A stretch of 64,000 nt of DNA from positions 140,264-204,263 of the forward strand of contig DATKXK010000014.1 in the NCBI GenBank assembly GCA_035529075.1. Reading direction: 5' to 3'. The notes under the pieces are model-generated. The model made no database searches and was not told the DNA's origin. It worked only from the letters and a program-made list of their open reading frames with translations. Positions 42,267 through 60,290 of this stretch are shown here, in pieces. Each line of letters opens with the position of its first letter. The stretch's first letter is position 1. The position numbers were made by a program, and so were the translations under genes. The stretch comes from Acidobacteriota bacterium. GTDB taxonomy: Bacteria > Zixibacteria > MSB-5A5 > GN15 > FEB-12.

Positions 42267-42334
42267 CTTCCTGATCCCTCCCTGGTGGGTCACGGTATTG
42301 TTCAGTTTGTTCTTTTCAGATCCCTGATCGCTCG

Positions 42335-42363
42335 AATCTACGCATTGCTCAAAAGTCGGTCAA
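42335..42363 (-). promoter_or_regulatory. Promoter of pal-cpoB-ligA
   Basis: On the minus strand TTGACC (42363-42358), a 17-nt spacer and TAGATT (42340-42335), in the 166-nt gap between tolB and pal. It allows pal and the genes after it to be expressed apart from tolQRAB. Confidence 0.65.
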
Positions 42364-42432
42364 TAAAAAAGGGGGAGGCGTTTTGGGTTTTTGCCGGGGG
42401 ACGGGGTTATTCGCGCCGGCGGCAGGCTTTTC

Positions 42433-43746
42433 TTAGCGGAGCGGCCCCCAGTCCGGATTGGAGCAGCCGCCCGAGCGAGTGAGACGGCGCTGATTGCGGC
42501 CTGAGATGTCCATGGTAAACACCTCCCGGGGGCCGAGGCGGTTGGACGAGAAGATGATGTGCTTACCGTCCGGGGAGAAATGGGGATTCTCGTTCATGCC
42601 AAGTTCTGTCAGTATACGGTAGCTGGTGCCGGAGGTGTCTGTGGAGGCCAGATCGAAACGTCCCCGCTTGTCGCGACTCACAAACGTTATCCGGTCGCCA
42701 CGCTGCGACCAGACGGGAGAATCGTTGTAGCCGCCCCGGTAAGTCAGCCGCCGGACGTTCAGGCCAAAGGCATCCATGATATAAACCTGCGGCGAGCCCG
42801 TGCGATCGGAGCTGAAGGCGATCATCCGCCCGTCCGGAGACCAGGTGGGGGCGGTGTCTATTGCCCAGTGATGGGTGAGGCGCTTGATTATTCGGCCGTC
42901 CCGATCGATCAGGTAGATTTCAGAGTTGCCGTCCCTGGTCAGAACGCAGGCAATCTTGTCGCCATCCGGGGAGACCGCCGCTGCCGCGACAAGGCCGGGG
43001 AAGGAAGCCACCTTTGTGACCTCGCCGGTGGATATGTCCACTTTGAAAAGTTGGGGATCTCCCTCGACATAGCTCGTAAAGTACAGCTCGTCGCCGTCGG
43101 GAGCAAAGGCGGGGGAGAGGTTAGTGGACCCGTTACTGGTGAGCTGTCGCTCGTTGGCGCCGTCGTAATCGGCGACGAACAGTTCCTTGGCCGCCTCGAT
43201 CTTTCGGATATAGGCTATCTTCGTTCGGAAAATCCCCCGTTCGCCCGTCAGGTTGTAGACTACCTCGTTGGCGATGTCATGGCCGAGTTCGCGCCAGTAG
43301 GCGCGGTTGTATTCCAGTCGGCCATTTGCCACCTGCCGTCGACGCACGGTTTCGAAGAGTTTCCAGGCCACGCGCAGGTTCCTGCCGGGGAACTCGGCCT
43401 CGAGTTTGACCACGAGATCGGCACCGAGGCGTTCCCAGCCGAGCAGATCAAGCTCGAAAATCTCGTAGGTTTTCAGATAGAAGCTGTCGAGCGGCACGAG
43501 ATCGAAGTCGGCGTAGAAATCCAGGTCCCGCTGAATGATGGTAGTAGTGTAGCGCATCAGGGCGGAGTCGTCAGCCGTGATGTAGCGGTTGCCGACGTAC
43601 TTCATCTCGTCCACGCCAATCGGCGTCGGCTGGACGTCGCCGGTGCGAAGGGTATCGAAGAGGACGTTGCGGACGCGTTCGTCCTGCGCGGAGGCGGACG
43701 CGAAGGCCGCAAGGGACAGGACTACGAGCAACAGGTGACGTTTCAT
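42433..43746 (-). CDS. tolB: Tol-Pal system periplasmic protein TolB
   Basis: 437 residues from ATG 43746; a codon 7 residues upstream lies near the tolA end. Signal peptide ends at ASA. The N-terminal domain (to ~residue 165) is followed by a six-bladed propeller with repeated SPDG or APDG turns: SPAFAPDGDELYFTS, AAVSPDGDKIACVL, APTWSPDGRMIAFSS, SPVWSQRGDRITFVS, NPHFSPDGKHIIFSS. TolB passes force from TolA to Pal at the division site. Confidence 0.95.
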   Translation of the reverse strand: MKRHLLLVVLSLAAFASASAQDERVRNVLFDTLRTGDVQPTPIGVDEMKYVGNRYITADDSALMRYTTTIIQRDLDFYADFDLVPLDSFYLKTYEIFELDLLGWERLGADLVVKLEAEFPGRNLRVAWKLFETVRRRQVANGRLEYNRAYWRELGHDIANEVVYNLTGERGIFRTKIAYIRKIEAAKELFVADYDGANERQLTSNGSTNLSPAFAPDGDELYFTSYVEGDPQLFKVDISTGEVTKVASFPGLVAAAAVSPDGDKIACVLTRDGNSEIYLIDRDGRIIKRLTHHWAIDTAPTWSPDGRMIAFSSDRTGSPQVYIMDAFGLNVRRLTYRGGYNDSPVWSQRGDRITFVSRDKRGRFDLASTDTSGTSYRILTELGMNENPHFSPDGKHIIFSSNRLGPREVFTMDISGRNQRRLTRSGGCSNPDWGPLR

Positions 43747-43756
43747 AGAGGCTCCT

Positions 43757-44452
43757 TCACGGCTCATACTTGAACGGCAGGGTTATACCGATGATCTCAT
43801 CGGGGAAACTCTGGGGCAGGGGAGGGAAAGGGGCGGCGCGCTCGACGGCCCGCACACAGGCCTCATCGTAGGCCCGTATGCCTGATGGTTCCTCGACCCG
43901 CAGTTCGATGACCCGACCGGATTTAAGAACCTGGAAGTACACGTCGCATACTATGCTGTAGTCCGCCGCTATGGGATTTCGCCAGTTGGACTGAATCTTG
44001 TAAAATGCCTGGGTAAACCAGTACGGGTAGTCAAATGAAGCGTTGTCGATAGTAGCGCCGGCAAAGGGCGTCCCGCCACTGGCGCTGACCTCCGCGGAAC
44101 CCGAGTCGCTGCCCGGCTGTCGGGTCGCGCCCTGCTCCGCCTGTGGCTGGTAAGGCTTTTCCTCGCGTTCCTCCTCCGCCTGCGGCTCGTCTTCGGGTTC
44201 GGTAATCTCCGCCGCGGGTGCGGTAGTCGGCTCGTTTATCGGCACTTCGACGGGCTCCGGTTCCAGTGCTCGGGGGATTTCCACCGGCGGTAATTCGACC
44301 GGTTCGGCGGCCGGCATGAAAGGAGCAGAGGTCAGGGAGACGGTAATCACTTCCCCTTGCATCTGGTGCCTGACATTCAGGGGCGAAACAATGACCGTGA
44401 CCGTCACCACGAGCAGGTGAAGTCCTATCGAGAAGACTACGCCCTGCTTCAT
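43757..44452 (-). CDS. tolA: TolA/TonB-like energy-transducing protein
   Basis: 231 residues, about half the length of E. coli TolA. N-terminal membrane helix (IGLHLLVVTVTVIV), a Pro/Glu-rich periplasmic region with alternating PVE and PEPVEV units rather than the long Ala/Lys helix, and a C-terminal TonB/TolA domain (NWRNPIAADYSIVCDVYFQV ... AFDEACVRAV-like). It spans the periplasm and uses the proton-driven TolQR motor. The short form resembles TonB; its place between tolR and tolB argues for TolA. Confidence 0.87.
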   Translation of the reverse strand: MKQGVVFSIGLHLLVVTVTVIVSPLNVRHQMQGEVITVSLTSAPFMPAAEPVELPPVEIPRALEPEPVEVPINEPTTAPAAEITEPEDEPQAEEEREEKPYQPQAEQGATRQPGSDSGSAEVSASGGTPFAGATIDNASFDYPYWFTQAFYKIQSNWRNPIAADYSIVCDVYFQVLKSGRVIELRVEEPSGIRAYDEACVRAVERAAPFPPLPQSFPDEIIGITLPFKYEP

Positions 44453-44468
44453 ACGGAACTCCTTCCCG

Positions 44469-44888
44469 CTACCGCCTGGGCTGCCCTTCTTCGTGGGCCG
44501 TGACCAGGCCGATCGATTCGATGCCCATTTCCTTGATACGGCCGATCACGTTGATCGCGGTACCGTAGGCGATGGTTGAATCCCCCCGCAGGTAGACGGA
44601 GGCCGTGTTTTTGGCGCGGAGTTCGCGGTCAAGCGCCTGCTCGAAGTTCTCCAGCCGCGTCCAGACGTCGTTGACGTAGACTCCCCCCCTGGCATCAATG
44701 GTCACGACAACACCGGATGCCTCTTTATCGAGCGCGGCGGCGCGGGTTTTGGGCAGTTCGATCTCGATACCGGATTGCAGGAGAGGGGCGGAAATCATGA
44801 ATATGATCAGCAGGACCAGCACGACGTCGACCAGGTTTGCAATGTTGATATCGGCAACGGCGCGGTATGTGCGACGGCGGTGACGCAT
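44469..44888 (-). CDS. tolR: Biopolymer transport protein TolR/ExbD
   Basis: 139 residues, one N-terminal helix with the proton-binding Asp in LVDVVLVLLIIFMIS, then a periplasmic domain (GVYVNDVWTRLENFEQAL). It forms the stator/rotor with TolQ. Overlaps tolQ by one nucleotide (TGATG). Confidence 0.93.
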   Translation of the reverse strand: MRHRRRTYRAVADINIANLVDVVLVLLIIFMISAPLLQSGIEIELPKTRAAALDKEASGVVVTIDARGGVYVNDVWTRLENFEQALDRELRAKNTASVYLRGDSTIAYGTAINVIGRIKEMGIESIGLVTAHEEGQPRR

Positions 44889-45604
44889 CAGCGCTCTTCC
44901 TTCTTGGCCCGGGCGATGAAATCGAGAATGAAGGCAAAGGAGCGGTCGTTCAGCTGCTTGACCTTGTTGTTAGCCCAGTTGTAGCCGATTACGGCCGGTA
45001 TGGCCGCTCCCAGCCCGACGATTGTCGCCAGCAGGGCCTCGGCAATCCCGGGTGCCACCACCGCCAGCGAGGCCGACCCGCGCTCTCCCACCGACCAGAA
45101 TGAGTCCATGATGCCGACCACCGTGCCCAGGAGCCCCATGAACGGCGCCGAACTGCCGGTAGTGGCAAGGAATATCACCCGCCGCTCCAGCCTGGACAAC
45201 TCCTCGGTAAGGCTGCGCTCCATGGTCATCTCGACTATTTCGAAATCGTCGTGGTTGAGCGGTACGGTTTTCTCTCTCAGGCCGCCCGCCTCGTTCCGCC
45301 TCTCCCTGAGTTGGCTGATCTCGTTCTGACCGGCCAGATAGATGTTCGACAGCGGTGAGAGCCGGTATACCTTGGCCTGACCGGCTATGTCGGCGATTCT
45401 GCGGGACCGTTGAAACTGCTGGGCAAAGCCGCTGCTGGATTGATCGACGACGCGAAACAGGCGCCACTTCTGAAAGATGATGGCCCAGGAGACCAGCGAC
45501 ATGACCACCAGGACGAGCAGAATGAAAATCCCGAACGCCGAAGTCTGGCCGACGATCTGCCAGACCGACCCCGAGAACAACCCGAGTAGAATAATTCTGA
45601 CCAT
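44888..45604 (-). CDS. tolQ: Tol-Pal motor protein TolQ (MotA/TolQ/ExbB family)
   Basis: 238 residues with three membrane segments: residues ~20-40, then LIFLATTGSSAPFMGLLGTV-like and PGIAEALLATIVGLGAAIPA, the conserved pore helices. A coiled cytoplasmic loop lies between. It forms the proton channel with TolR to energise TolA. First gene of the tolQRAB cluster; the promoter is not clear. Confidence 0.94.
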   Translation of the reverse strand: MVRIILLGLFSGSVWQIVGQTSAFGIFILLVLVVMSLVSWAIIFQKWRLFRVVDQSSSGFAQQFQRSRRIADIAGQAKVYRLSPLSNIYLAGQNEISQLRERRNEAGGLREKTVPLNHDDFEIVEMTMERSLTEELSRLERRVIFLATTGSSAPFMGLLGTVVGIMDSFWSVGERGSASLAVVAPGIAEALLATIVGLGAAIPAVIGYNWANNKVKQLNDRSFAFILDFIARAKKEER

Positions 45605-46143: not shown

Positions 46144-47265
46144 CTAGTCTTCAATCATCTCCACGTTCGCTCGTGGCACGACGGCGCGGGTGCCTTCATC
46201 AAACTCTACCTCCAGGACACGTGCCCTGGACCCCGATTCCAGTTCCTGCAGGGGAGCGGGCAGATCGGTGACCTTGCCAAGGCGTCCGAAATGCGGATGA
46301 CGGATGACCCGGACCGGTGAGCCGACGGTCAGGCCGCCCATGGTTGCCGTCCTTGCCACCTGCTCGCTGCTTTCAGACACGACGGGGACCACCACCTCCG
46401 GACGAATCACCCCTGCTCGGATCTGCGTGGCGCCGTTGATGCAGGCCATTTCACCCTCGTGCCGCTTGAGCAGATCGAACGTCTTCTGAGCCATATTGAT
46501 CTGTCCGAATCCTTCCGTTACGACGAGAGTGATGTTGATATCCTCCGAGCCGGTGATGGCCACTCCGATGTCATAGCCCAGAAAGTCGCGGAGGTCCTTG
46601 TCGTCAAACCCGCCCACCACGATGCCGCGGACGCCGGCACTGATCGCCTTCTTGAGGGCCGAGGCCGTGACGAGCGATCCCCCCACGACCACCTTGCCGG
46701 CCAGATCACTGCTGATAAGGTCGTCCGACAGGACGGTGGCGTTGTCGGGTGTCGCCACCCGGATGTTCCCGAACGTTTCGCCGCCTATGCCAAAGATGCC
46801 CTGCACGAATGAGGCCTGGCAACTCACGACCACCCCCTCGTTGGGCAGTACTTCCGTAACCTCCCCCCGCAGATAGGCCCTGACTTCCACCGGCGCCGGT
46901 TCGCCCCTTTGCAGGATCTGGCCGGTCACGTGCGAGATGGATTCGATAGCGCCGTCAATCGTCGCGTAACAGTAATTCTTGAATATAAACAGCGTTCGGG
47001 ACAGCGCGATAGGCTCGTTCTCCGTGATCCGGTCGCCGACCTTCTTGAGCATCACCATCTCGATGTCCTCGGGCGGCAAGCCCAGCTTGTTGGCGACGTT
47101 GATCGGCACGACGTTTCCCGGAAGCAGCGTCCGGGCCACGACGTCATCCGGCTTCACTTTGTCCCCGACCTTCACCATCACCTCGCCCTTGAGTGGAAGG
47201 ATGCGGTGCTTCCGGACAATGATGCGCTCAGTAACTTTAAGGCCGGGAGTATAGGCGTGGGCCAT
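46144..47265 (-). CDS. Unknown protein with barrel-sandwich-like N-domain and KOW-like C-terminus
   Basis: 373 residues, no membrane segment. The N-terminal ~125 residues read like a barrel-sandwich hybrid (LPLKGEVMVKVGDKVKPDDVVAR, in two repeats: VTGQILQRGEPAPVEV). The middle (~130-290) is alpha/beta with Gly-rich turns (GKVVVGGSLVTASALKKAI, GVRGIVVGGFDDKDL). The C-terminal ~60 residues resemble a KOW/SH3 fold (GSPVRVIRHPHFGRLGKV). Third gene of the MutL-family cluster, 31 nt after its neighbour. I do not recognise a function; the context suggests a partner of the MutL-family ASKHA protein. Confidence 0.75.
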   Translation of the reverse strand: MAHAYTPGLKVTERIIVRKHRILPLKGEVMVKVGDKVKPDDVVARTLLPGNVVPINVANKLGLPPEDIEMVMLKKVGDRITENEPIALSRTLFIFKNYCYATIDGAIESISHVTGQILQRGEPAPVEVRAYLRGEVTEVLPNEGVVVSCQASFVQGIFGIGGETFGNIRVATPDNATVLSDDLISSDLAGKVVVGGSLVTASALKKAISAGVRGIVVGGFDDKDLRDFLGYDIGVAITGSEDINITLVVTEGFGQINMAQKTFDLLKRHEGEMACINGATQIRAGVIRPEVVVPVVSESSEQVARTATMGGLTVGSPVRVIRHPHFGRLGKVTDLPAPLQELESGSRARVLEVEFDEGTRAVVPRANVEMIED

Positions 47266-47296: not shown

Positions 47297-48061
47297 TTAC
47301 CGTTTGCGGCGCCTGCGACTCAGGATTACCACGGCGGCTATAACCACCAGCACGGCGATCCCGATGGGAACGAAACCCCTTGACTTCTTTCCCTGCCGGG
47401 ACTCGAGGTCCGCCACCTTTACCTCTTCCACGGGCACGGAGGCCTCGATCTCCTCGGTTGAGAACGATGTCACGATATCGGCGAAAAGCTGTTTGCTCTC
47501 CTCGAAGAGCGAATCCGGCGAATAGAAGTAGAAGTTGGCGATCCCGTGCTCATAGAACTTGAGCATCAGGAGGTTCTTCTTGAAGACCTCGCCGTCCTCA
47601 AGGATGTCGGTGACGATCGCCGCCGTATGCGTCTGAGCATCGTACAGCGGCGCGTTCGACTTCATGTTGGTCATGAAGTTCCCCACCGGATAGTAGGCGA
47701 CCTCTTCGCCGAACATGTCGCCCAGATTCGACAGGACCGAATCGATTTGGCTCTCGCTCAGTTGTCCCACAGTGTCTACCGTCAGGATAAGATACACGTC
47801 ATCCGCAAACCGTGCTCCTTCATGGGGGGAGAGAACCACGTCGTACTGAAATGTCAACGGGTCGGTGCCTCCCCTCTGCAGGTAGTAGTCGACGGTGCGG
47901 TAATCGGCACGGATCCACGTATCCGGATAGGTGAAGTGGAACTTGCCGTTGAAACTGATGAACACTTCGGCGGCCGGGCTCGATGAAACGATCAACACGA
48001 GCACCAGGCTGGCGAACGCCAGGCGAACAAGTCGCCCGCTAGATTTGCCTGCTATCAACAT
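47297..48061 (-). CDS. Exported protein with C-terminal membrane anchor
   Basis: 254 residues from ATG 48061, 8 nt after the MutL-family stop with an AAGGCAG site; an in-frame codon at 48115 would overlap that gene. Signal peptide ends at SPAA. The body is a mixed alpha/beta domain, and GKFHFTYPDTWIRADYR resembles the start of PsbP-like or other domains of the Mog1 fold. A C-terminal helix (VPIGIAVLVVIAAVVIL) and RRRRKR anchor it. Topology: exterior domain, single C-terminal anchor. Confidence 0.75.
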   Translation of the reverse strand: MLIAGKSSGRLVRLAFASLVLVLIVSSSPAAEVFISFNGKFHFTYPDTWIRADYRTVDYYLQRGGTDPLTFQYDVVLSPHEGARFADDVYLILTVDTVGQLSESQIDSVLSNLGDMFGEEVAYYPVGNFMTNMKSNAPLYDAQTHTAAIVTDILEDGEVFKKNLLMLKFYEHGIANFYFYSPDSLFEESKQLFADIVTSFSTEEIEASVPVEEVKVADLESRQGKKSRGFVPIGIAVLVVIAAVVILSRRRRKR

Positions 48062-48069
48062 GTTCTGCC

Positions 48070-49923
48070 TTAGAGTTTGTCGATATCGGGATAGATATCC
48101 AGTTCTTTCATCCACGTCTTCAGGTATGATACGCGCTCTTCCTCGTCGAGCACCGAAAGGTTAAACGGCCGGCCGCGGCCGTCGAGGATAACGCCGGCCA
48201 CGCCGCCGTACAGCGTCCTTTCGACCTTGTCTCCCCTGCCGGCACCCAGGTCAAAACCGCGCTCCGGTTCGAGCACCGCCCGCACTTTCAGGGGCAGCCC
48301 GTCTTCACCCAGACCGAGCGGGAAGTGCTTCATTTCGAGGTAGTCCAGAGTGCCCGAGACGGGGCCGTCCGGAAGCTCGATCCGGTACTTCATCACGGGC
48401 CCGCGTTTTTTGGCCGTACCTGCGGCTGCGACGCAGGTTCCCAGGTGGATCAGGCAGTCCTTTTCAAACACCTCGGTGGCCGCCTTTGGCTGTACCTCGG
48501 TCAGCACGCCGAGCTGCGGCATCATGAAAATCGAGTCCACGGCCAGGCGCGTCACGCCCTCGGGCATGAAAGCGTCGATCATCATCAGGGCCGCCTGCTG
48601 CCGGCGCGGCGCGTGCGACAACACTCCGCCCGAGCCGATGAGCATGTCGAGAGTCATCATGTTGACGATTGTCTGACCGGACGAAGACTGCTCAAAGGCA
48701 TCGGCGATGGTCCTCTGCTGCTGCACTCCCTTGAGCACGGTGGCGAAGGACCGATGCTGCTTTAAGGCCAGGCGAAGAGCTTCTTTGGCAATGGCCTGTT
48801 CGAAGACGAGTTCTTCCAGCGACTGGGGAATGGTCGTCGGGCGGATCATCTTGTTCTTTACGCGGTTGCGAAGGTCCCGCTCGTCCATCTTGAATGGCAC
48901 CCAGCGCATCACCATCGGCAAGGTCGCCTCGGCAAAGACGTTGGAAATCGAGTACGACATGCCCAGGTTGGCCGACACCGTGCGGTTGAACTCGGGTGTT
49001 GAGCCGTCGGGGCGAAATACCGAGAAGATGTCGGTGGTGGCCCCGCCAATGTCAACACCGAGGGCTTCGATGTTATACTGCTTGGCGATTGTCTGTATGA
49101 TCAACCCGACCGCCCCCGGAGTGGGCATGATGGGGGCGTCGGTCCACCCCATAAGCTTTTTGTAACCCGGCGCCTGAGCCATGACGTGCTCCATAAAAAG
49201 CTCATGGATTTCCTCGCGGGCAGGACCCAGGTTCTCGCGCTCGAGCACCGGACGCAGGTTCGCGACCGTGCGCAGATCGACCTTGTCGGCCAGGGTGCTT
49301 TTGACGTCCTCCATCGCATCCTTGTTGCCGGCATAGATAATGGGCAGCTTGTAGCCGGAGCCGAGGCGCGGACGAGGGTCGGCCGCGGCCACGAGTTCGG
49401 CGATCTCCACGACGTGGGTTCGGGTCCCGCCGTCGATACCGCCCGAGAGGAGGATCATGTCGGGGCGGAGGAGGCGGATGCGCTCGATCTGCTGGTGCGG
49501 CAGGCGCTTGTCGTTGGACGCGATCACGTCCATCACGATCGCGCCGGCGCCGAGCGCGGCACGCTCGGCTGATTCCGCCGTCATGGACCGCACCACTCCG
49601 GCCACCATCATCTGCAATCCGCCGCCGGCCGACGAAGTGGAAATATAGATGTCCGTGCCGACATTGCCCTCCGAAGGCTTTATAAACTTGTCGGATTCGT
49701 CGAGCAGCTTTCGACCCGTCAACTCTTCAAGCTCGGCCACGGCGTTGAGCACGCCCATCGTCACGTCTTCAAACGGGGCTTCAACAGTCGTCGGAGCTTC
49801 TCCGCGCGAAATGAGGCGGTACTCACCGTTGATGTATTCAATAAGGATTGCCTTGGTGGTGGTCGAGCCGCAGTCGGTCGCGACTATAACTCGTATCTCG
49901 TTCGGGTTATCGAAATCTGCCAT
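48070..49923 (-). CDS. MutL-family ASKHA protein (glutamate mutase L-like)
   Basis: 617 residues. The ASKHA-type ATPase signatures are VATDCGSTTTKAIL near the N-terminus and ALGVDIGGATTDIFSVF in the middle; SSAGGGLQMMVAGVV and LLSGGIDGGTRTH are characteristic of the family named after MutL of the clostridial glutamate mutase operon. In that operon MutL is thought to act as a chaperone or reactivase for a B12 mutase. No mutase subunit is in this window; instead two uncharacterised genes follow at 8 and 31 nt. So the role here may differ from the name. Confidence 0.85.
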   Translation of the reverse strand: MADFDNPNEIRVIVATDCGSTTTKAILIEYINGEYRLISRGEAPTTVEAPFEDVTMGVLNAVAELEELTGRKLLDESDKFIKPSEGNVGTDIYISTSSAGGGLQMMVAGVVRSMTAESAERAALGAGAIVMDVIASNDKRLPHQQIERIRLLRPDMILLSGGIDGGTRTHVVEIAELVAAADPRPRLGSGYKLPIIYAGNKDAMEDVKSTLADKVDLRTVANLRPVLERENLGPAREEIHELFMEHVMAQAPGYKKLMGWTDAPIMPTPGAVGLIIQTIAKQYNIEALGVDIGGATTDIFSVFRPDGSTPEFNRTVSANLGMSYSISNVFAEATLPMVMRWVPFKMDERDLRNRVKNKMIRPTTIPQSLEELVFEQAIAKEALRLALKQHRSFATVLKGVQQQRTIADAFEQSSSGQTIVNMMTLDMLIGSGGVLSHAPRRQQAALMMIDAFMPEGVTRLAVDSIFMMPQLGVLTEVQPKAATEVFEKDCLIHLGTCVAAAGTAKKRGPVMKYRIELPDGPVSGTLDYLEMKHFPLGLGEDGLPLKVRAVLEPERGFDLGAGRGDKVERTLYGGVAGVILDGRGRPFNLSVLDEEERVSYLKTWMKELDIYPDIDKL

Positions 49924-50600: not shown

Positions 50601-51884
50601 TTGTATAAAAGACTCCGTTCAGGCAGCCGCAAGATGCGCGTGGCGCTTTTTCTCTGTTTTTCTGTCCTCGTTATCCCCATACTGATCGCCGTCGGCCCGG
50701 CCACGGCTGAAGAAGAGTCCCCGGCCGGCGACACTCTTGTGTCGGCCGAACGGCTCGACAGCCTGACCGCGTTTCAGATCGCCCGGCCGGTGACGAACGC
50801 CCGAGCTGAGGACAACCCGGATGACGGCGGCGGCGCCGCCCTGATCAAATGGGATCACTCTCCTGACGACCACGAGGCCGGAACGGTTACGACCTACATT
50901 GTCTATCGTTCCGAGTCCCCGGACAGCCTCTTTGTTGAGGTGGGCGACGTGCCGAAGGGTGTTTTCGAGCTTATTGACGGCAACACGGTCGACGGCCGTA
51001 CTTACTTTTATAAAGTGGTGCCCGTGGCCGGGCCCGGCGCACCGGAGCAAGCGCTCCTGGCAATGCTGAACGCGGCAGACCTCACCGATCCGGTCAGCTC
51101 TTCTGCCCAGTGGTTCGATTTCCGCCGGATCAACGTGTTCGTGGGTACGATGCTGCTCAGTTTCTTGATCATATTCATGATTATACGGGCCAAATCGGGC
51201 AAAGAGCTGTTCATACGCAAGATCGCCGGCATGGAGGCGGTAGATGAGGCCGTCGGCCGAGCCACCGAGATGGGTCGCAAGATTTTCTTTGTTCCCGGTA
51301 TCAACGACATGGATAACGTTCAGACGATTGCCGGGATTACGATCCTCGGGCGGGTCGCCGAGCTGGCCGCGCAGTACGAGACCTGGCTCGAGGTACCTGT
51401 TTGCCGTTCGCTTGTGCTGGTCACGGCCAAAGAGGTGGTCCGCGAGGCCTACGCCAAGGCCGGCCGTCCGGAAGCCTTCCAGGAGAACCAGGTGCACTAC
51501 TTGACCGACGACCAGTTCGGCTACGCCGCGGCCATCGACGGCATGGTCGTTCGGGAGAAGCCCGCCACCATTTTTTACATGGGCGCGTTTTTCGCGGAGT
51601 CGCTGATTTTGGCGGAGACCGGCAATGCCACCGGGGCCATTCAGATAGCGGGCACGGCGATGCCATCGCAATTACCCTTTTTCGTGGCCTCCTGCGACTA
51701 CACCCTTATAGGAGAAGAATTGTTCGCCGCCTCGGCCTACCTTTCCAAGGAGCCGAAACTTCTCGGTTCTCTCAAGGGTCAGGATATGGGCAAGGCGGTT
51801 ATTCTTTTTGCCATTATTGCGGGGATTATTTTGGAGACGTTCGGTATCTGGAGTCTTTCGAGCCTGTTTACAGTGATCGAGTAA
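50601..51884 (+). CDS. Module 1, A subunit: FN3-like ectodomain, membrane anchor and conserved cytoplasmic domain
   Basis: 427 residues; TTG 50601 follows AAGGA, ATG 50634 is the alternative. N-terminal signal (VALFLCFSVLVIPILIAV), then an FN3-like domain at ~60-145 (ALIKWDHSPDD, TYIVYRSESPD, TYFYKVVPV), a membrane helix (178-195), a cytoplasmic domain (~196-397) and a last helix (~398-416). RAKSGKELFIRK after the helix sets the cytoplasmic side by the positive-inside rule. Conserved in all three A proteins: GRATEMGR, FFAESLILAETG, and PFFVASCDYTLIGEEL. It resembles proteins listed as domain of unknown function (DUF6754, if I recall it correctly). No catalytic motif seen. Confidence 0.85.
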   Translation: MYKRLRSGSRKMRVALFLCFSVLVIPILIAVGPATAEEESPAGDTLVSAERLDSLTAFQIARPVTNARAEDNPDDGGGAALIKWDHSPDDHEAGTVTTYIVYRSESPDSLFVEVGDVPKGVFELIDGNTVDGRTYFYKVVPVAGPGAPEQALLAMLNAADLTDPVSSSAQWFDFRRINVFVGTMLLSFLIIFMIIRAKSGKELFIRKIAGMEAVDEAVGRATEMGRKIFFVPGINDMDNVQTIAGITILGRVAELAAQYETWLEVPVCRSLVLVTAKEVVREAYAKAGRPEAFQENQVHYLTDDQFGYAAAIDGMVVREKPATIFYMGAFFAESLILAETGNATGAIQIAGTAMPSQLPFFVASCDYTLIGEELFAASAYLSKEPKLLGSLKGQDMGKAVILFAIIAGIILETFGIWSLSSLFTVIE

Positions 51885-51888: not shown

Positions 51889-52536
51889 ATGCGCAGAGAG
51901 ATCCCGCTTTTCATAACCGGCCTTGTAGGCGTTGTGTTTGTCGTCCAGTACTTTATCCCCCACTATCCGTTCAACCGCATGAACGGCTGGTTCTCCGACT
52001 GGTTCTCGATTGTCGCAGCCTGCGCGATCGTCCTGGGCGCCCTCAACCTCATGATGATTTCCGGGCAGAAGATTATCAAGCGGAAGCCGGACTGGGGATA
52101 CGCCCTCGTGATCATTCTCTCCTTTGCCCTGATCACTATCATCGGGTTTGCCGATGGTGAGGGATTCCGCGAACCGGGGACGAATTTCGACTGGCTGTAT
52201 GTTTTCATCTACATCCCGCTGTCGGCGACAATGTATGCCATCCTGGCCTTCTTTGTTGCCTCGGCCGCCTACCGGGCTTTTCGTGCCCGCAACGCGGAGG
52301 CGACCCTGTTGCTGCTGGCGGCGTTTTTCGTGATGCTCGGCCGGGTGCCGATCGGCAATGTCCTTACGTGGTTTATGCCGGAGGGGGCGCGGTTGTCCGA
52401 CCTGGCCTCGTGGATCATGAATTTCCCGCAGACGGCCGGCCAGCGCGCCATCATGATCGGTATCGCGCTCGGTCTGGTGTCCACCTCGTTGCGCATTATC
52501 CTCGGGATTGAGCGCTCCTACCTGGGGGGGGATTAG
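51889..52536 (+). CDS. Module 1, B subunit: polytopic membrane protein
   Basis: 215 residues, about six membrane segments, starting 4 nt after A. The family signature is AFFVASAAYRAFRARN in the middle, with GRVPIG, then W-M-N-x-P and GQRAIMIGIALGLVS, ending LRIILGIERSYLG. The three B proteins share these with little else. The charged YRAFRARN loop between helices 4 and 5 is predicted cytoplasmic. No known transporter signature. Confidence 0.85.
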   Translation: MRREIPLFITGLVGVVFVVQYFIPHYPFNRMNGWFSDWFSIVAACAIVLGALNLMMISGQKIIKRKPDWGYALVIILSFALITIIGFADGEGFREPGTNFDWLYVFIYIPLSATMYAILAFFVASAAYRAFRARNAEATLLLLAAFFVMLGRVPIGNVLTWFMPEGARLSDLASWIMNFPQTAGQRAIMIGIALGLVSTSLRIILGIERSYLGGD

Positions 52537-52539: not shown

Positions 52540-53550
52540 ATGAGCACGAAGGTCAGGGAAATCATCGCCATGTCCCTAATCGCTGTTTTCTGTGTGGTTA
52601 TGTACATAGGCAAAGTGTCGGGCTGGACGCATGGGTTTCAGTTCCCGGTCTGGTTGTCCGTGGTGGTGCTGGCCGTCATAGGCTTGTCCCTGCTGTGGAT
52701 GCTGGTCCGGACCGTCAGGGGTCGCCTGGTGGAACGCCGGGTGGTATTCCTTTACGTCGGTATAGCCGTTGCCCTGCCTCTGTTCATGCCGCTGTCGCAG
52801 GATATCATCGTTTCCGATGAAGTGCGGGCGGTGTACGAGGCGGTTCAGGAGTTGTCACCGGGATCCCGGGTTCTGGTATCATTTGACTATGATCCGGCGT
52901 CCGCTCCGGAGCTTCAGCCGATGGCGGAATCGTTCATGACGGAGTGCTTCAGAAGGGACATCAAGGTGGTCGTCATGGGTCTGTGGCCCCAGGGACCGCA
53001 GCAGGCGAACATGGCCATTGCGAAGGCGCTGGCCCGGGAGGAGATCGCCGGCAAGGATCTCAAATACGGCATTGATTACGCCAACCTGGGATACCAGGCG
53101 GGCAACGAGTTCGTTATTCAGCGGATGGGTTCTGACTTCAAGTCGATGTTCAAGACCGACTATCGCGGTCAGGCGTACGACGACATCCCCCTGGTCAGAA
53201 ACGTAAGGAATTTCTCCAACATAGATTACTCGTTCAACTTATCCGCCGGCTTTCCCGGCACGGTGGAATGGGTTCAGGTGGCCGTCGACCGCTACGGCTT
53301 GAGAATGGGTGCGGGCAATACCGCGGTGCAGGCGCCGACCATTTATCCTTACCTGCGCTCCGGCCAGCTTGTCGGGCTGATAGGTGGTATGAACGGCGGA
53401 GCGGAGTTTGAGCGGCTGACGAGCACACAGTCAAAGGCGACCAAGTTCATGCTGTCCCAGTCGCTGGCGCACATTATCGTCATCGCGTTCGTTATCATCG
53501 GGAACGTGGCCTTCTTCCGGAGCGGCCGGAAATCGGCGCTGCGAGGTTAG
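52540..53550 (+). CDS. Module 1, C subunit: membrane-anchored exterior domain
   Basis: 336 residues. Three N-terminal membrane helices (~8-25, 37-58, 68-85), a soluble domain (~90-305) and one C-terminal helix (AHIIVIAFVIIGNVAFF). The basic loop VRTVRGRLVERR between helices 2 and 3 puts the domain outside. Family motifs: SPGSRVLVSFDYDP, APELQPMAESF, GYQAGNE, DDIPLVRN and the Gly-rich GLIGGMNGGAEFERL. The order, strand-SFDYDP-helix-strand, suggests a Rossmann-like alpha/beta start, but no catalytic site is evident. Confidence 0.85.
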   Translation: MSTKVREIIAMSLIAVFCVVMYIGKVSGWTHGFQFPVWLSVVVLAVIGLSLLWMLVRTVRGRLVERRVVFLYVGIAVALPLFMPLSQDIIVSDEVRAVYEAVQELSPGSRVLVSFDYDPASAPELQPMAESFMTECFRRDIKVVVMGLWPQGPQQANMAIAKALAREEIAGKDLKYGIDYANLGYQAGNEFVIQRMGSDFKSMFKTDYRGQAYDDIPLVRNVRNFSNIDYSFNLSAGFPGTVEWVQVAVDRYGLRMGAGNTAVQAPTIYPYLRSGQLVGLIGGMNGGAEFERLTSTQSKATKFMLSQSLAHIIVIAFVIIGNVAFFRSGRKSALRG

Positions 53551-53566: not shown

Positions 53567-54190
53567 ATGGAACATTTCGGACTCTGGGTCGCCGCCTTCC
53601 TGACACTCGGGATTTACTCCTTCCTGTATCGTGACAACGCCTGGTACAAGCTGAGTGAGGCGATATTCATCGGCATCTCGGCCGGTTACTGGGTGGTGTC
53701 GCTGTACTGGGACAACTTCTACGGCAAGTTCTGGATCGGCAAAGGGGAGGACCCGTGGTTGTGGGTGGGCGCCGTGCTGGGAATCCTCATGCTGATGAGG
53801 CTGGTGCCCAAGATCGGCTGGATTTCGCGCTGGCCGCTGTCGTTTATTGTCGGCGCCACGGCCGGACTGTGGATGATGAACTACTTTTCTTCGAACATCA
53901 TGCTGCAGGTGAGGGACACCATGATCCCGCTGCTGGGCCCGGGCTTCAGCGCCTCGCCGTACGCAATCGTCGGTAACGTCGTGGTGGCAATCGGGACGTT
54001 CAGCGGCCTTGTATACTTCTTCTTTTCAAAGGAGCACAAAGGGGCGTTCGGCGCGACGGCCAAAGTGGGGATATTTTTTATCATGGTCACTTTCGGTGCC
54101 TCCTTCGGCTACACGGTCATGAGTCGTATGTCACTCCTGATCGGCCGTATCGACTTCCTTTTCTCCGACTGGCTGGGGTTGGTGCTGTAG
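53567..54190 (+). CDS. Module 1, D subunit: polytopic membrane protein
   Basis: 207 residues, about six membrane segments; the shortest D protein. Motifs shared with the other copies are SFLYRDN-x-WYK near the start, GISAGYW, a Gly-Leu-rich helix before PKIGWISRWPLSFIVG, and FFSKEHKG...FGASFGYTVMSRMSLL. The PK-GWISRWP loop carries the strictly kept charged residues and may be a contact site. Its stop codon overlaps the start of the next A gene by one nucleotide. Confidence 0.85.
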   Translation: MEHFGLWVAAFLTLGIYSFLYRDNAWYKLSEAIFIGISAGYWVVSLYWDNFYGKFWIGKGEDPWLWVGAVLGILMLMRLVPKIGWISRWPLSFIVGATAGLWMMNYFSSNIMLQVRDTMIPLLGPGFSASPYAIVGNVVVAIGTFSGLVYFFFSKEHKGAFGATAKVGIFFIMVTFGASFGYTVMSRMSLLIGRIDFLFSDWLGLVL

Positions 54191-55455
54191 TGTCGTCCGG
54201 CAAGGTCAAAACCCGGGGATGGATTCTCGCCTCTCTTCTTGTTCTGACCATTCTGTTCAACGTGTCACTCTCGGGCACGTGCGCCGCGCAAACTGATCTG
54301 GCGCCGCCGGGTGAAGCCGCCCTGGATGATTCCACCGATATCATTATAGCCGAACCGGTTACGTCGGTAATTGCCTCCGATCACAAGTATGACGACGGCG
54401 AGATGATCGATCTTGGATGGGTTCCCTCCATCGACGACCAGTTGCTCGGGGGGACGGTCAAGGGGTACCGCGTCTATCGAATCGTCAACGACGGCGCCCC
54501 GGATATTGTGGCCGAACTGCCGCCGCGGTCCTACCTTTTCCTGGATCAGTCCGCCCACCGCGACAGCAGCTACGTCTACTACGTTTCGGCCGTGACGTCG
54601 AACGCTGAGTTCGCCTCCCTCAGGACGGCCCCGATCTCACCCGGGCGTGAATGGATAAATTACGAGAAGAAATACCTGTTTTTGATTGCGCTCATTATCG
54701 GCGGCTCGGTGGTCTTTTTCATTGAGACGGCGCGCCGGGGGAAAAAGCTGTTCGTGCGTAAAATCGCCGGGCTGGAGGCCGTTGACGACGCCGTGGGCAG
54801 GGCCACCGAGATGGGGCGGCCCATTCTTTTTGTCCCCGGCATTCTGGATATGAACGACGTGCAGACGCTGGCCGGGCTGACCATTCTCGGTCGCGTCTCG
54901 AGAGTCATTGCCGACTACGATACGCAGATATTCATGCCCGTTTCGCGATCGCTTGTCATGACGGCGGCGAGAGAAACGATCAAGGCGTCATATCAGTCGG
55001 CCGGCCGACCGGAGAAGTACAGCGACGACATGGTCAGCTACGTTACCGACGAACAGTTCGGTTACGTGGCGGCGGTCGACGGTATCATGGTCCGCGAGAA
55101 GCCGGCCACGGTGTTCCTGCTCGGCGCCTTCTTTGCCGAGTCACTGATTCTGGCCGAGACGGGCAACTACATCGGCGCCATTCAGATTGCCGGCACCGCC
55201 CGCCCGGCGCAGTTGCCCTTCTTCATCGCTGCCTGCGACTTCACGCTGATCGGTGAAGAACTGTTCGCGGCCTCGGCCTATCTTTCCAATGAGCCCAAGG
55301 CCCTTGGCTCGCTCAAGGGGCAGGACGTGGGCAAGGCGATAGCGATGGTGACCATCTTTGTCGGCGTGATCGGCATTACGATTGACCTGGCGTGGAACGT
55401 CCAGTCCATGCATTGGCTGGTCGGAACCTTGAACGACATCTTCTCTACCAGGTGA
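54190..55455 (+). CDS. Module 2, A subunit
   Basis: 421 residues with a GTG start embedded in the stop of the preceding gene (TAGTG). Signal peptide ends near residue 31. FN3-like domain with IDLGWVPSIDD, GYRVYRIVND and SYVYYVSAVTS; membrane helix (YLFLIALIIGGSVVFFI); cytoplasmic domain starting RRGKKLFVRKIAG and carrying GRATEMGR, GAFFAESLILAETG and PFFIAACDFTLIGEEL; final helix AMVTIFVGVIGITID. It is the closest to A1 by eye, above half identical in the cytoplasmic domain. Confidence 0.85.
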   Translation: MSSGKVKTRGWILASLLVLTILFNVSLSGTCAAQTDLAPPGEAALDDSTDIIIAEPVTSVIASDHKYDDGEMIDLGWVPSIDDQLLGGTVKGYRVYRIVNDGAPDIVAELPPRSYLFLDQSAHRDSSYVYYVSAVTSNAEFASLRTAPISPGREWINYEKKYLFLIALIIGGSVVFFIETARRGKKLFVRKIAGLEAVDDAVGRATEMGRPILFVPGILDMNDVQTLAGLTILGRVSRVIADYDTQIFMPVSRSLVMTAARETIKASYQSAGRPEKYSDDMVSYVTDEQFGYVAAVDGIMVREKPATVFLLGAFFAESLILAETGNYIGAIQIAGTARPAQLPFFIAACDFTLIGEELFAASAYLSNEPKALGSLKGQDVGKAIAMVTIFVGVIGITIDLAWNVQSMHWLVGTLNDIFSTR

Positions 55456-55462: not shown

Positions 55463-56140
55463 ATGAAACGGTACGTACCGCTGGCAATCACGTTTCTTGT
55501 GGGCACGCTCCTGATCGTGTCGGTGTTCATCCCGCCGATGGAGACCCTGGGGGAGAACTTCACGCTGTTTTTTGACATCATTGCCGTCTTTGCCTTCTTT
55601 CTCGGCGGCGGCAATCTGATGCGCGTTCACATCAGCAAGCTCCAGCGCCGCAAAACCGACTGGCCGTTTTCCATCGTGACACTGGTCGGCTTCGGCTTCA
55701 TGCTGATAATCGGCCTGTTCAAGATCGGGAACCCGGGTGACATTTCCGCTTCCGTAACCGCTGAAGGCTCCTGGTTCCAGGAGATGTTTCGCTACTTGAT
55801 CACGCCCCTTCAGTCGACTATGTACGCCCTGCTGGCGTTCTTCGTCGCCTCGGCGTCGTACCGCGCCTTCCGGGCGAAGAACCGCGAGGCGACGATGTTA
55901 CTGGTGGCGGCCTTTATCATATTGCTGGGTCGCACGCCGTTCGGGATGATGGTGACTGCATGGGTGCCCGAGTCGCTGTCGGTGCTGCAGATCCCGAACC
56001 TGGCCATCTGGATCATGAACTCGCCCAACCTGGCCGGCCAGCGCGCCATTATGATCGGCATCGGCCTCGGCGTGGTGTCGATGTCGCTGCGGCTCATCCT
56101 CGGAATAGAACGTACCTACCTGGGGGACGACCGTGGCTAA
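55463..56140 (+). CDS. Module 2, B subunit
   Basis: 225 residues, about six membrane segments. Shared B motifs: LLAFFVASASYRAFRAKN, LLGRTPFG, WIMNSPNLAGQRAIMIGIG and LRLILGIERTYLG. A short extra exterior loop (GNPGDISASVTAEGSWFQ) distinguishes it from B1. Its end overlaps the GTG start of C2 by 8 nt. Confidence 0.85.
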   Translation: MKRYVPLAITFLVGTLLIVSVFIPPMETLGENFTLFFDIIAVFAFFLGGGNLMRVHISKLQRRKTDWPFSIVTLVGFGFMLIIGLFKIGNPGDISASVTAEGSWFQEMFRYLITPLQSTMYALLAFFVASASYRAFRAKNREATMLLVAAFIILLGRTPFGMMVTAWVPESLSVLQIPNLAIWIMNSPNLAGQRAIMIGIGLGVVSMSLRLILGIERTYLGDDRG

Positions 56141-57050
56141 CATCGGCGTGGTCATCTCACTTGTGATCATATTCGGCGGCATGCTGGCCCTGTTGTTCAG
56201 ATCGGTGATGGCCCGCGAAGTCGACCGGCGAATAATCTTCCTGTTCATCTTTCTGGCCGTGGCGGCGCCGATCCTGTTCCCGATAACGTTTTCCGAGAAA
56301 GCCACGCAGGTTGTCAAGTCGGTGTTCGACCGGATAGAGAACCTGCCGCCCGGTTCCAACGTGCTGATCTCGTTCGATTTCGACCCCGCCATGGCGCCGG
56401 AAGTGCAACCGATGGCCAACGCCATCAGCCGGCACTGTCTGGAGAAGGGGCATAAGGTCATTTTCATGTCGCTCTGGGCGACCGGTCAGGCGCTGTTGAC
56501 GCAGTTGCTCGAAGAAGCCATTCTGCCGGGTTTCCCGGACAAGCAGAACCTCGTGGATTACGTCAACGTCGGGTACAAAGCCGGCAACGAAGGCGTCCTT
56601 AACGTCATCATCACCGATTTCAGGAAGATGTTCCCGACCGACGTCAACAGTGTTCCGCTCGACAGCATCCCCGTGTTTGACGACGTCAGGTCGTGCAAGG
56701 ACCTTGACCTTGTTATCGCCATCGGGGGCGGACAGCCCGGACCGAAGGAGTGGGTGCTCTTCGTCGGAGACCCGGGGAACGTGCCGGTCGGAGTCGGCGT
56801 GGCTGCCGTTACGGCTCCCCAGCTATACCCGTATTACCCCGCGCAGGTCATCGGCATTCTGGGCGGGGTCAAGGGTGCGGCTGAGTATGAATCCGAACTG
56901 ATGCGGGTGCACCCGCGGTTTGCCGATATGGATACCCCGGGACTCCGCATGATGGGTCCGCAGACGCTGGCTCACGTGGTCATCATGTCGTTCATAATCA
57001 TCGGCAACATTGTGTTCTTCAGAACGCGTCGCCGGGAGCAGAAGACATGA
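56133..57050 (+). CDS. Module 2, C subunit
   Basis: 305 residues, GTG start inside the end of B2. Two N-terminal helices align with helices 2-3 of C1, so the first helix of C1 is missing. The exterior domain has LPPGSNVLISFDFDP, APEVQPMANAI, GYKAGNEG, LDSIPVFDDV and GILGGVKGAAEYE. The last helix is followed by a basic tail (RTRRREQK). Overlaps D2 by 4 nt. Function unknown. Confidence 0.85.
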   Translation: MANIGVVISLVIIFGGMLALLFRSVMAREVDRRIIFLFIFLAVAAPILFPITFSEKATQVVKSVFDRIENLPPGSNVLISFDFDPAMAPEVQPMANAISRHCLEKGHKVIFMSLWATGQALLTQLLEEAILPGFPDKQNLVDYVNVGYKAGNEGVLNVIITDFRKMFPTDVNSVPLDSIPVFDDVRSCKDLDLVIAIGGGQPGPKEWVLFVGDPGNVPVGVGVAAVTAPQLYPYYPAQVIGILGGVKGAAEYESELMRVHPRFADMDTPGLRMMGPQTLAHVVIMSFIIIGNIVFFRTRRREQKT

Positions 57051-57862
57051 GGCGGTCCACGTACATCGTCATGGCCGTTGTCCTGGGGCTGTTTCTCATC
57101 AGTTGGGTCGTCAAGGCACTGAGCTTTCAGCCCGACACCGACCACTACATCATACGGGGATTCCTCATAACGTTTTCGGCCTTCCTGACGCTGGCCGTGC
57201 TTTCGTTCCTCTACCGGGACAATCCGTTCTACAAGTTCGCCGAGCATCTTTTCGTCGGCATATCGGCGGCCTTCTGGATGTGCGTCGGATTCTGGACCAC
57301 CATCGTGCAGAACCTGATCCCGAGAATATCGGAGGGGCTGTCCGGCTTTTTCAAAGTGCCCTACCTGCCCGGCACGTATAACTTTTTCTTCTTCATCCCG
57401 GTGATCCTGGGTATCCTCCTGCTGATGCGGCTCTCGCCGAAGGGCGGGTGGATCTCCCGCTGGCCGCTGGCGTTTATCGTCGGCACGACGGCGGGACTGA
57501 ATTTTTCGCGATATCTCCGCACGGATTTCATAAAGCAGATCTCCTCGACATTTGTGCCGCTGCTCGGAAGAGAATGGCAGGGGGTGGGTGTCTTTTTCTC
57601 CACCCTTGACCTGTCGGCCACCGGGCAGTTCGTCATGATAGCGGCCAACTGGGTCATATTCCTGGGCGTTTTCTGCGGCCTTATCTACTTCTATTTCTCG
57701 CGGGAGCACAGCGGCCTTTTCGGAAGGGCGTCCCGGGTCGGTGTCTGGATTCTGATGATTACGTTTGGAGCGTCCTTTGGTTATACGGTGATGGGCCGGA
57801 TCTCGCTGTTGGTGGGGCGCATCACCTTCCTTTTCAGAGATTGGCTGGGACTAATAAGCTGA
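57047..57862 (+). CDS. Module 2, D subunit, with extra N-terminal helix
   Basis: 271 residues. The D core begins around residue 40 (FLITFSAFLTLAVLSFLYRDN). Before it is an extra helix (TYIVMAVVLGLFLISWVV) that D1 and D3 lack. D motifs: NPFYKFAEHLFVGISAAFW, PKGGWISRWPLAFIVG, and FGASFGYTVMGRISLLVGR. About seven membrane segments in all. The added helix has the same orientation as the helix missing from C2. Confidence 0.85.
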   Translation: MRRSTYIVMAVVLGLFLISWVVKALSFQPDTDHYIIRGFLITFSAFLTLAVLSFLYRDNPFYKFAEHLFVGISAAFWMCVGFWTTIVQNLIPRISEGLSGFFKVPYLPGTYNFFFFIPVILGILLLMRLSPKGGWISRWPLAFIVGTTAGLNFSRYLRTDFIKQISSTFVPLLGREWQGVGVFFSTLDLSATGQFVMIAANWVIFLGVFCGLIYFYFSREHSGLFGRASRVGVWILMITFGASFGYTVMGRISLLVGRITFLFRDWLGLIS

Positions 57863-57886: not shown

Positions 57887-59461
57887 ATGTGTATGAAACA
57901 TAAACTGATTTTGGGTGCGGTGGTCCTGATTGTATGCCTCGGGCAGGCGGCGGCACAAGAGCCGGCGGCGACAGTGGATAGCCTTCTCGTCGATGCGGCC
58001 TTGCTGCCTGCTGCGGTGACCGACCTGACGGTCTCCGATAAGGACAACGATCACGGCCATGCCATCGTCCTGAACTGGAAACCGTCGGTCGATGATCTTG
58101 CGGATACGACCGGCGCGGGCACCGTGATTGGATACACGGTCTACCGCTGGGTTCCCTTCCTGATGCACAGCGTGGACTCACTGCGCGCGGAGTTGGCCGG
58201 GATTCGAATGACCCTGGCAGCGTACGAGGCGGGTCTGCCGCAGGCACGGGAAGCCCTTCGACAATTGCGGGCGGACCAGGTGAGCCTGGACTCGCTGCCG
58301 TTTCAGGTGGCCCGGCCGGTTGACGATACGACGTTCGTGCTGAATCGCGATTTCGTTGACCGGGGCCTGACGGACACGATCCGCATCATGTCCGCCGGGA
58401 TAGGGCCGCTCGACGACAGTATCCGGCCGACTGAACAGAAGATCCGGGACATGAGCGATCAACTTCCCGCCGCCCATGCCGCGTACCCCAACGGCGGGAC
58501 CTGGGATTCGATCGGCGTGGCGGCCCCCGGGGCGACCCAGTTCGAGAACTCGGGTTCCAAGGACAAGTTCTCGGGCGATTTCCTTCCGGACTTCTCCGAC
58601 TACTACTACCGCGTCCAGGCGTGGACGACGGACCCGGCTGTCAGCAGCCTCTCGCAGGTTGTGGGGCCCGTCCAGAGTTACGGGCAGTGGTTCAACACCG
58701 GCAGGTATCCGGTCTTTGTGGCCGTTATCATATTCGCTATTCTGACGGTGTACTTCGTCAGCCGGGCGCGCAGAGGCGCCAAGTTGTACGTGCGACCGCT
58801 TGCGGGGATTGAGGCGGTGGACGATGCCATCGGCCGGGCGACGGAGATGGGTCGTCCGATTCTATACGTGCTCGGCCTCGGCACGGCGGCCGACATCGCC
58901 ACCATCGCTTCGTTCACTATCCTCGGCAGAGTGGCCAAGCGTGTCGCGGAATACCAGACGTCGCTGATTGTTCCCACGTATGAGCCGATCGTGATGTCCG
59001 TGGCGCAGGAGGTGGTCAAGTCCGCGTACCTTGATGCCGGCCGGCCGGATGATTATGACGAGAACACGGTTTTCTTCGTGACTAACCTTCAGTTCGCATA
59101 CGTGGCGGCGGTCAACGGCATCATGCTGCGGCAGTTGCCGGCCACCAATGTATACATGGGCAAGTTCTTCGCCGAATCGCTCATCCTGGCCGAGACGGGT
59201 GCGCTGGCCGGTTCCATTCAGATAGCCGGCACCGATGAAATCGCGCAGATTCCGTTCTTTATCGTGGCCTGCGACTACACGCTGATCGGTGAAGAGCTGT
59301 ATGCCGCCTCGGCGTACCTCGGGCGCGAGCCGATCCTTCTGGGCTCACTGAAGGCTCAGGACTGGGCTAAAGCGGCGGTCATTTTCCTGGCCCTTGCCGG
59401 GCTGGTCGCGTCCAACCTTGACTGGACGGCCTTCACAGCGCTGTTCCACGTGTCCAATTGA
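57887..59461 (+). CDS. Module 3, A subunit, with enlarged ectodomain
   Basis: 524 residues, about 100 more than A1 and A2. AGGAAA precedes two ATGs, 57887 and 57893. The FN3-like fold is split: the first strands (IVLNWKPSVDD, IGYTVYRWVP) and the last (DYYYRVQAWTTD) are separated by ~130 residues containing a likely coiled coil (VDSLRAELAGIRMTLAAYEA, REALRQLRADQVSL, and a later one). The cytoplasmic domain keeps GRATEMGR, GKFFAESLILAETG and PFFIVACDYTLIGEEL but has drifted most elsewhere (LAGIEAVDDAIG). Confidence 0.85.
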   Translation: MCMKHKLILGAVVLIVCLGQAAAQEPAATVDSLLVDAALLPAAVTDLTVSDKDNDHGHAIVLNWKPSVDDLADTTGAGTVIGYTVYRWVPFLMHSVDSLRAELAGIRMTLAAYEAGLPQAREALRQLRADQVSLDSLPFQVARPVDDTTFVLNRDFVDRGLTDTIRIMSAGIGPLDDSIRPTEQKIRDMSDQLPAAHAAYPNGGTWDSIGVAAPGATQFENSGSKDKFSGDFLPDFSDYYYRVQAWTTDPAVSSLSQVVGPVQSYGQWFNTGRYPVFVAVIIFAILTVYFVSRARRGAKLYVRPLAGIEAVDDAIGRATEMGRPILYVLGLGTAADIATIASFTILGRVAKRVAEYQTSLIVPTYEPIVMSVAQEVVKSAYLDAGRPDDYDENTVFFVTNLQFAYVAAVNGIMLRQLPATNVYMGKFFAESLILAETGALAGSIQIAGTDEIAQIPFFIVACDYTLIGEELYAASAYLGREPILLGSLKAQDWAKAAVIFLALAGLVASNLDWTAFTALFHVSN

Positions 59462-59474
59462 GAGGAGGCCAGAG

Positions 59475-60290
59475 ATGAAACGACAAGTTCCTTTGATACT
59501 GGTGTTCGTCTTCGGGCTGTTCATGATCTTTCAGTACTTCGTCCCCCATGAATCGTCCGAGTGGATCTACGAGTTCCTCCTGGATTGGATATACATTATC
59601 GGCATCTTCGCCCTGGCCCTGGGGATCTGGTCGCTCTACGCGGTGTCGGTCGGCAAGATCAAGAACCGCCAGCCCAACTGGGGGTACTCGTACATCACGC
59701 TGGCCGGACTTTTCTCCATGATCATGTTCGGTTTTACCTCCCGAACCGGAGAGTCGTGGGGCTGGTATTTCGTGTTTATCGCGACCGTGCTGTTGACTAT
59801 CGGGATGATCATCCAGGCCACGGTGTCGAGATCGCAAAAGGGGCTGTTCCTTGGCCTGGCCGGGCTCTTCCTGGTCGTTTCCTTAGTCATTGCGATCTTC
59901 GACCGGTCCTGGCAATTCTACTTCTACACGGCTGAGGGCCTTCGTAACTTCATGTTCCGCGCTTTCTTTGACTTCGTCATGATGCCCATTATGGCCACGG
60001 TGTTTTCGCTTCTGGCTTTCTTCATAGCCTCGGCGGCCTACCGGGCGTTCCGGGCGCGCAACCTGCTGGCGTCCCTCCTGCTGGCTGCGGCTCTTATCGT
60101 CATGCTCAGGTTCAACCCGTATCTCACACCGATCTTCGGCGACTACGCGGCCAAAACTTCCAATTGGCTCATGAACGTGCCCAATCTTGCCGCCCAGAGA
60201 GCCATCGTTATCGGTGTCGGGCTCGGCATTGTTTCGACTGCCCTTAAAGTGATTCTGGGCATTGAACGCGGCTACATGGGAAGAGGGTAA
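59475..60290 (+). CDS. Module 3, B subunit, with two extra helices
   Basis: 271 residues from ATG 59475 after GAGGAGG; an in-frame upstream codon at 59394 would overlap A3. It has about eight helices: two more (WYFVFIATVLLTIGMII and LFLGLAGLFLVVSLVIAIF) are inserted before the common part. The common part has LLAFFIASAAYRAFRARN, WLMNVPNLAAQRAIVIGVG and LKVILGIERGYMG. Function unknown. Confidence 0.85.
   Translation: MKRQVPLILVFVFGLFMIFQYFVPHESSEWIYEFLLDWIYIIGIFALALGIWSLYAVSVGKIKNRQPNWGYSYITLAGLFSMIMFGFTSRTGESWGWYFVFIATVLLTIGMIIQATVSRSQKGLFLGLAGLFLVVSLVIAIFDRSWQFYFYTAEGLRNFMFRAFFDFVMMPIMATVFSLLAFFIASAAYRAFRARNLLASLLLAAALIVMLRFNPYLTPIFGDYAAKTSNWLMNVPNLAAQRAIVIGVGLGIVSTALKVILGIERGYMGRG

Follow-up and report, generated by a model that had tools for sequence, protein, structure and literature searches.

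GlmL-type ASKHA ATPases have so far been linked to the repair of B12 enzymes. DUF6754 (Pfam PF20539) is already catalogued as a domain family but has no assigned function, and no paper on it was found in the open-licence literature. We have analysed a stretch of 64,000 nucleotides from a Zixibacteria contig (DATKXK010000014.1; this whole stretch is called the window below), in which a GlmL-like ATPase (F) and a soluble protein (E) are encoded upstream of, and divergently from, the DUF6754 gene A1, and in which three complete A-B-C-D cassettes stand in tandem between 50601 and 62019 (Table 1). What appears to be new here is not the domain family itself, but the linked seven-gene system G-F-E-A-B-C-D, which is seemingly undescribed in the open-licence literature.

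Table 1 Positions of the genes and protein parts in the window, with the evidence for each
Feature	Position	Strand	Evidence and remarks
Gene A1	50601-51884	+	ORF; 427 aa from TTG; alternative start ATG 50634
A1 signal peptide and fast-evolving extracytoplasmic N-terminal domain	50601-51119	+	20% three-way identity, 38% orthologue identity
TM1 of A1	51120-51194	+	Model helix 27-51; positive-inside
Conserved cytoplasmic core of A1 (GRATEMGR...LGSLK)	51255-51776	+	Six-strand alternating alpha/beta, DUF6754; PF20539 E 9e-124
Invariant Glu186, directly past strand 4 (FFAES)	51597-51599	+	Alignment, model
Invariant Cys218-Asp219	51693-51698	+	65-relative alignment
Glu225-Glu226 (E226 invariant, E225 at least 90%)	51714-51719	+	65-relative alignment
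TM2 of A1, its helix continuing directly from the core	51753-51839	+	Model helix 238-266
B1, integral membrane partner	51889-52536	+	Conserved order ABCD; B2 55463-56140, B3 59394-60290 (ORF)
C1, membrane protein with large extracytoplasmic alpha/beta domain	52540-53550	+	AF2 pLDDT 94.5; topology
C paralogues	C2 56133-57050; C3 60302-61180		
D1, integral membrane partner	53567-54190	+	ABCD order; D2 57047-57862, D3 61183-62019
Gene A2	54190-55455	+	PF20539 E 7e-120; conserved core 54796-55317
Gene A3	57887-59461	+	PF20539 E 2e-114; conserved core 58832-59353
E, soluble 373-aa protein	46144-47265	-	Barrel-sandwich-like N-terminus, KOW-like C-terminus (weak domain matches)
F, GlmL-like ASKHA ATPase, own subfamily	48070-49923	-	Pfam MutL 432 bits

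A1, A2, and A3 are real ORFs, and their core is kept far more than the rest of each protein, just as the initial annotation of this DNA had proposed. Among the three proteins, 89 of the 174 core columns are identical (51%), whereas the identity falls to 20% (26/133) in the outer N-terminal domain and to 14–27% at the membrane helices (27% for TM1 with its linker, 14% past the core). For comparison, the best 174-column stretches in the partner proteins show three-way identities of 33% (B), 22% (C), and 31% (D). All the sequence elements named in the annotation are present in the core. Its start at 51231 was eight codons early, since GRATEMGR lies at 51255, yet the conserved block does begin slightly upstream of this motif, where R59 is invariant. 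The retention had also been described as uniform, through two duplications, and both points need a correction. Residues 260–299 of A1, in the middle of the core, are only 25–30% identical in the three-way comparison against 55–75% for residues 320–399, and the genome carries five A copies instead of three (besides those in the window, contigs C5 and C10 carry one each).

The same contrast is observed between orthologues. Comparing the window with the locus L033, we have found that the core amino-acid identity is 93% for A1, 87% for A2, and 94% for A3, while the N-terminal identity is 38%, 37%, and 45%, respectively. For A1, dN is 0.052 in the core versus 0.632 in the N-terminal part, with synonymous sites near saturation. 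Since the orthologue pairs behave in this way, the contrast between the core and the outer domain is strong and independent of the duplications. As to the outer domain, A3 carries a long insertion in it that A1 and A2 do not have. An FN3 identity, suggested from a look by eye only, was dropped as the profile test failed; in Pfam, the N-terminal domain of A1 matches no family at E ≤ 1, and that of A3 gives only a weak Ig-like match.

In the profile search, the A core corresponds to DUF6754 over the full length, with an E value of 2e-114 or better and scores of 412 (A1), 399 (A2), and 382 bits (A3) against a curated cut-off of 27 bits. Among named records, those closest to it come from Zixibacteria. 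Our survey of this phylum has detected the domain in 132/132 genomes searched, mostly in 4–6 copies, and in the tree A1, A2, and A3 constitute separate groups. As each group has orthologues across Zixibacteria, the three genes stem from old duplications. Relatives of A have been detected in ten or more phyla (Planctomycetota, Verrucomicrobiota, Cloacimonadota, Stahliibacteriota, Caldifarciminota, Latescibacterota, Bdellovibrionota, Bacillota, Actinomycetota, and others), and the domain is absent from all of 14 well-known control genomes. Outside Zixibacteria the occurrence is patchy, with A in 17/59 Planctomycetota and 4/61 Bacillota genomes, and one genome (G133) has nine matches.

An AlphaFold2 model of A, for which 65 sequences (own and related) were used, has a mean pLDDT of 93.4 and a pTM of 0.84. 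Its layout is TM1 (residues 27–51), a helix (62–77), six strands alternating with helices (81–235), and TM2 (238–266). The positive charges cluster after TM1 (on average 4.28 K+R, versus 0.46 before it), which places the core on the cytoplasmic side. Thus, both the model helices and the positive-inside counts agree with the earlier view that the core is flanked by two membrane helices and exposed to the cytoplasm. The core is a predicted cytoplasmic Rossmann-like alternating alpha/beta domain; it is compact and enzyme-like in the model and not a passive anchor, which was also the opinion of the initial annotation. Fold prediction followed by structural search had been set as a test, and it revealed no well-known enzyme family: the PDB fold search with the A model gave nothing at E ≤ 0.001, with generic Rossmann-like proteins such as the Moco carrier 6y01 as the best neighbours. 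When A and C were searched by sequence against solved structures, neither had a relative there.

There are 27 invariant columns across the 65 A relatives from at least ten phyla. The invariant residues include E186, E192, Q201, T205, Q210, C218, D219, and E226, and thirteen invariant residues are polar or charged. The Cys-Asp and Glu-Glu pairs that had been put forward as candidates are therefore conserved except for one detail, as C218, D219, and E226 are invariant while E225 is kept at a level of at least 90%. We mapped the conservation onto the secondary-structure elements of the model, not onto the surface. It is nearly even across the element classes (0.627 for strand-to-helix loops and ends, 0.636 for helix-to-strand loops and ends, 0.638 for helices, and 0.663 for strands), and is higher in the second half of the core (0.676) than in the first half (0.563). 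In helices a0 and a6 every face is conserved, the least conserved one still reaching 0.64–0.65; helix a2 shows ordinary one-sided conservation. In part, this is the even spread that was to speak against a pocket. Of the functions suggested earlier, namely an active site, a ligand pocket, or a common docking surface, the active-looking domain is upheld, but the conservation spans all the secondary-structure elements, which does not favour a pocket serving purely as an active site. Overall, a broad contact surface together with packing accounts for the pattern at least as well as a single pocket, if not better.

Among the loci of sufficient length to reveal the gene order, which come from ten or more phyla, nearly all have B, C, and D following A. 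Most Zixibacteria loci retain the triple array, whereas other phyla mostly show one cassette. In addition, one genome (G015, L028:7542-9318) has two successive A genes and then B, C, and D, i.e., A was duplicated without its partners. B and D look polytopic, and the large domain of C is located outside the cell by the positive-inside test. This domain of C contains the invariant residues E118, P121, D201, E285, and H305, and solved structures offer no good match to it. A GT-B/Rossmann likeness of C from the fold search was weak, with poor TM-scores, and we do not take it as evidence of a glycosyltransferase. Common descent of A and C was rejected as well, because the profile comparison shows no relation.

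Clustering of the neighbours has identified E and F in 30–34 of 71 loci, and also a small gene G. The order is G-F-E-A-B-C-D in Planctomycetota, Verrucomicrobiota, Latescibacterota, and SP4379, F-E-ABCD in Bdellovibrionota, and ABCD followed by G-F-E in Cloacimonadota and a rumen bacterium. For the A-bearing genomes from other phyla, E is found in 22/22 and F in 21/22. In two evenly drawn samples, from Planctomycetota and Bacillota, 17 genomes have both A and E, 4 have A only, 2 have E only, and 97 have neither, so that the two genes agree in 114/120 genomes (Fisher p 5e-15). Full-length F tracks this pattern in the 18 genomes tested. E and F were not found in four A-positive genomes of the even samples (G172, G227, G250, and G263, assembly quality not given). 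The Zixibacteria, with their 4–6 A copies, mostly have one full-length E and one F, with few exceptions; this holds even where E/F are far from A, as in G015.

The cross-phylum conservation of E and F is about that of the A core, and searching solved-structure sequences with these two proteins gave chance-level matches only. Between E and F in the window there is a 272-aa gene (47297-48115), for which relatives were detected in no group other than Zixibacteria and its close relatives. Bacillota additionally have diverged F-E pairs with no ABCD in the vicinity, and the pairs in L115:6919-10120 and L118:7332-13622 adjoin MacB/FtsX-like ABC transporter genes. A B12 enzyme or one common partner beside the extra pairs was considered and rejected, as two are flanked by these MacB/FtsX-like genes and the others by assorted housekeeping genes.

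Envelope and lipid genes are found around the system. In the window, a full Tol-Pal-like set (TolQ, TolR, TonB/TolA, TolB, Pal, and CpoB-like; 40933-45604, minus strand) stands beside E and F and shares their strand. In the loci L068-L075, L123, and L124, from Phycisphaerae and Stahlbacteria, the neighbours are fatty-acid genes of the plsX and fabH type. In Phycisphaerae, PlsX-, FabH-, FabD-, FabG-, and FabF-like genes, recognised by eye, come after ABCD, and in Stahlbacteria F and G adjoin profile-confirmed PlsX and FabH. Both neighbourhoods would suit a role in the envelope or in membrane lipids, though neither is kept in all phyla.

Why should the core be so strongly retained? The explanation we favour, to which we nevertheless give somewhat less than an even chance, is that it has been frozen mainly since every A copy must engage one common E/F partner, the core being a coupling or docking hub. 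The core would be the DUF6754 domain of subunit A in an ancient membrane complex of A, B, C, and D, and would act as the inner-face coupling hub, where all the A copies offer the same surface to one soluble E/F pair. F, the GlmL-like ATPase, would together with E use ATP to load, remodel, or energise the complex, working on the hub through E, while action outside the cell would fall to C and to the variable N-terminal domain in A; the Rossmann-like core may additionally hold a small ligand. We infer the physical docking of E/F on the core, the ATP-driven coupling, and the ligand from what is observed, namely the predicted fold class, topology, family, operon, co-occurrence, and the single E/F versus several A. 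A single partner common to all the A copies would fix the contact face only, so the core would be frozen and the outer domains left free, in line with the observed pattern. In agreement with the hub, the conservation covers all the faces of a0 and a6 as well as the loops at both sheet edges, and the core is on the cytoplasmic side, where soluble E and F are expected. On the other hand, some Bacillota E/F pairs have no neighbouring A cassette, four A-positive genomes are without E/F, the thirteen invariant polar or charged residues would suit a catalytic site too, and the single E/F versus many A copies could have other causes.

The catalytic alternative, in which the core would be an enzyme or carrier domain bound to the membrane and the rest of the complex would move its substrate or product, is in our opinion somewhat unlikely. 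Its pocket would be formed at the C-terminal strand ends (G181-x-F-F-A-E186, A203-G-T205, and G224-E-E226), with C218-D219 nearby. The Rossmann-like fold agrees with this, as do the ligand-binding alpha/beta proteins among the best fold neighbours (e.g., 6y01) and the invariant polar residues at strand ends; however, these strand ends are not more conserved than elsewhere, no fold match reached the threshold, and no known cofactor motif occurs in the 65 rows. That is, the P-loop GxxxxGK[ST], the dinucleotide motif GxGxxG of NAD(P)-type Rossmann dehydrogenases, and the LOG/Moco carrier motif GGxGTxxE are each in 0/65 rows of the core, CxxC was not found in them, and for iron-sulfur or zinc ligands (at least three conserved Cys/His) the core has no conserved His and one conserved Cys, C218. 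Nucleotide or metal binding by the core has no support from the sequences. For the A core, a docking role is no less probable than a catalytic one.

It is distinctly unlikely that ABCD is a transporter, in which the A core gates or regulates in the cytoplasm, B and D make the path, and C is the extracytoplasmic receptor. The apparently polytopic B and D and the confidently modelled alpha/beta domain of C would fit such roles, and the many copies per genome, up to the nine matches mentioned above, together with the fast outer domain of A would suit substrate variants, but B, C, and D match no transporter family above cut-off, and the most variable part is the outer domain of A, with C not especially variable. 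Least probable of all is that the core serves chiefly for structural packing, holding together a hetero-oligomer of the three paralogous cassettes in one assembly. Such packing would explain helices conserved on all faces and three full cassettes side by side in most Zixibacteria loci; however, many of the invariant residues are charged, and they are kept in Planctomycetota with a single cassette. Since they are kept where one cassette is seen, packing between paralogues cannot be the whole reason.

Taking up the docking hub again, we suggest, still more tentatively than the hub itself, that the genes G-F-E-A-B-C-D encode an ancient membrane machine that is driven by ATP, has not been described before, and occurs in at least ten phyla and apparently all Zixibacteria; in it, a GlmL-type ATPase would act via E on a cytoplasmic Rossmann-like hub of a membrane complex. 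A domain that is present in all the genomes of a phylum searched, kept across ten phyla, and tied to an ATPase and five further genes points to a basic cell function. With the full gene set defined, the system is testable as a unit, and one E/F versus many A gives a concrete and falsifiable reason for the conservation of the core.

Compared with known systems, Tol-Pal is a neighbour in the window, its genes adjoining E and F, but A, B, C, and D have no profile link to Tol proteins, and this neighbourhood is not seen in the Planctomycetota or Bacillota loci. The alternating core of A has a weak likeness to the Moco carrier/LOG Rossmann protein 6y01 (prob 0.99, TMt 0.50), with E 0.017, i.e., above 0.001, 15% identity, and an rmsd of 8, and it differs in being fused between two membrane helices. 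F resembles the GlmL/MutL ASKHA ATPases (PF13941, NF040745, and NF040744). F has the family domain, with 432 bits against the PF13941 cut-off of 27, and both phosphate-binding stretches, DCGSTTTK and DIGGATTD, which are kept in all the aligned rows. It stays below the cut-offs of NF040745 (238.6 bits against 475), TIGR01319 (173.5 against 204), and Or-4, and differs by a C-terminal extension of its own. In the operons read, F stands beside membrane genes instead of a B12-dependent mutase.
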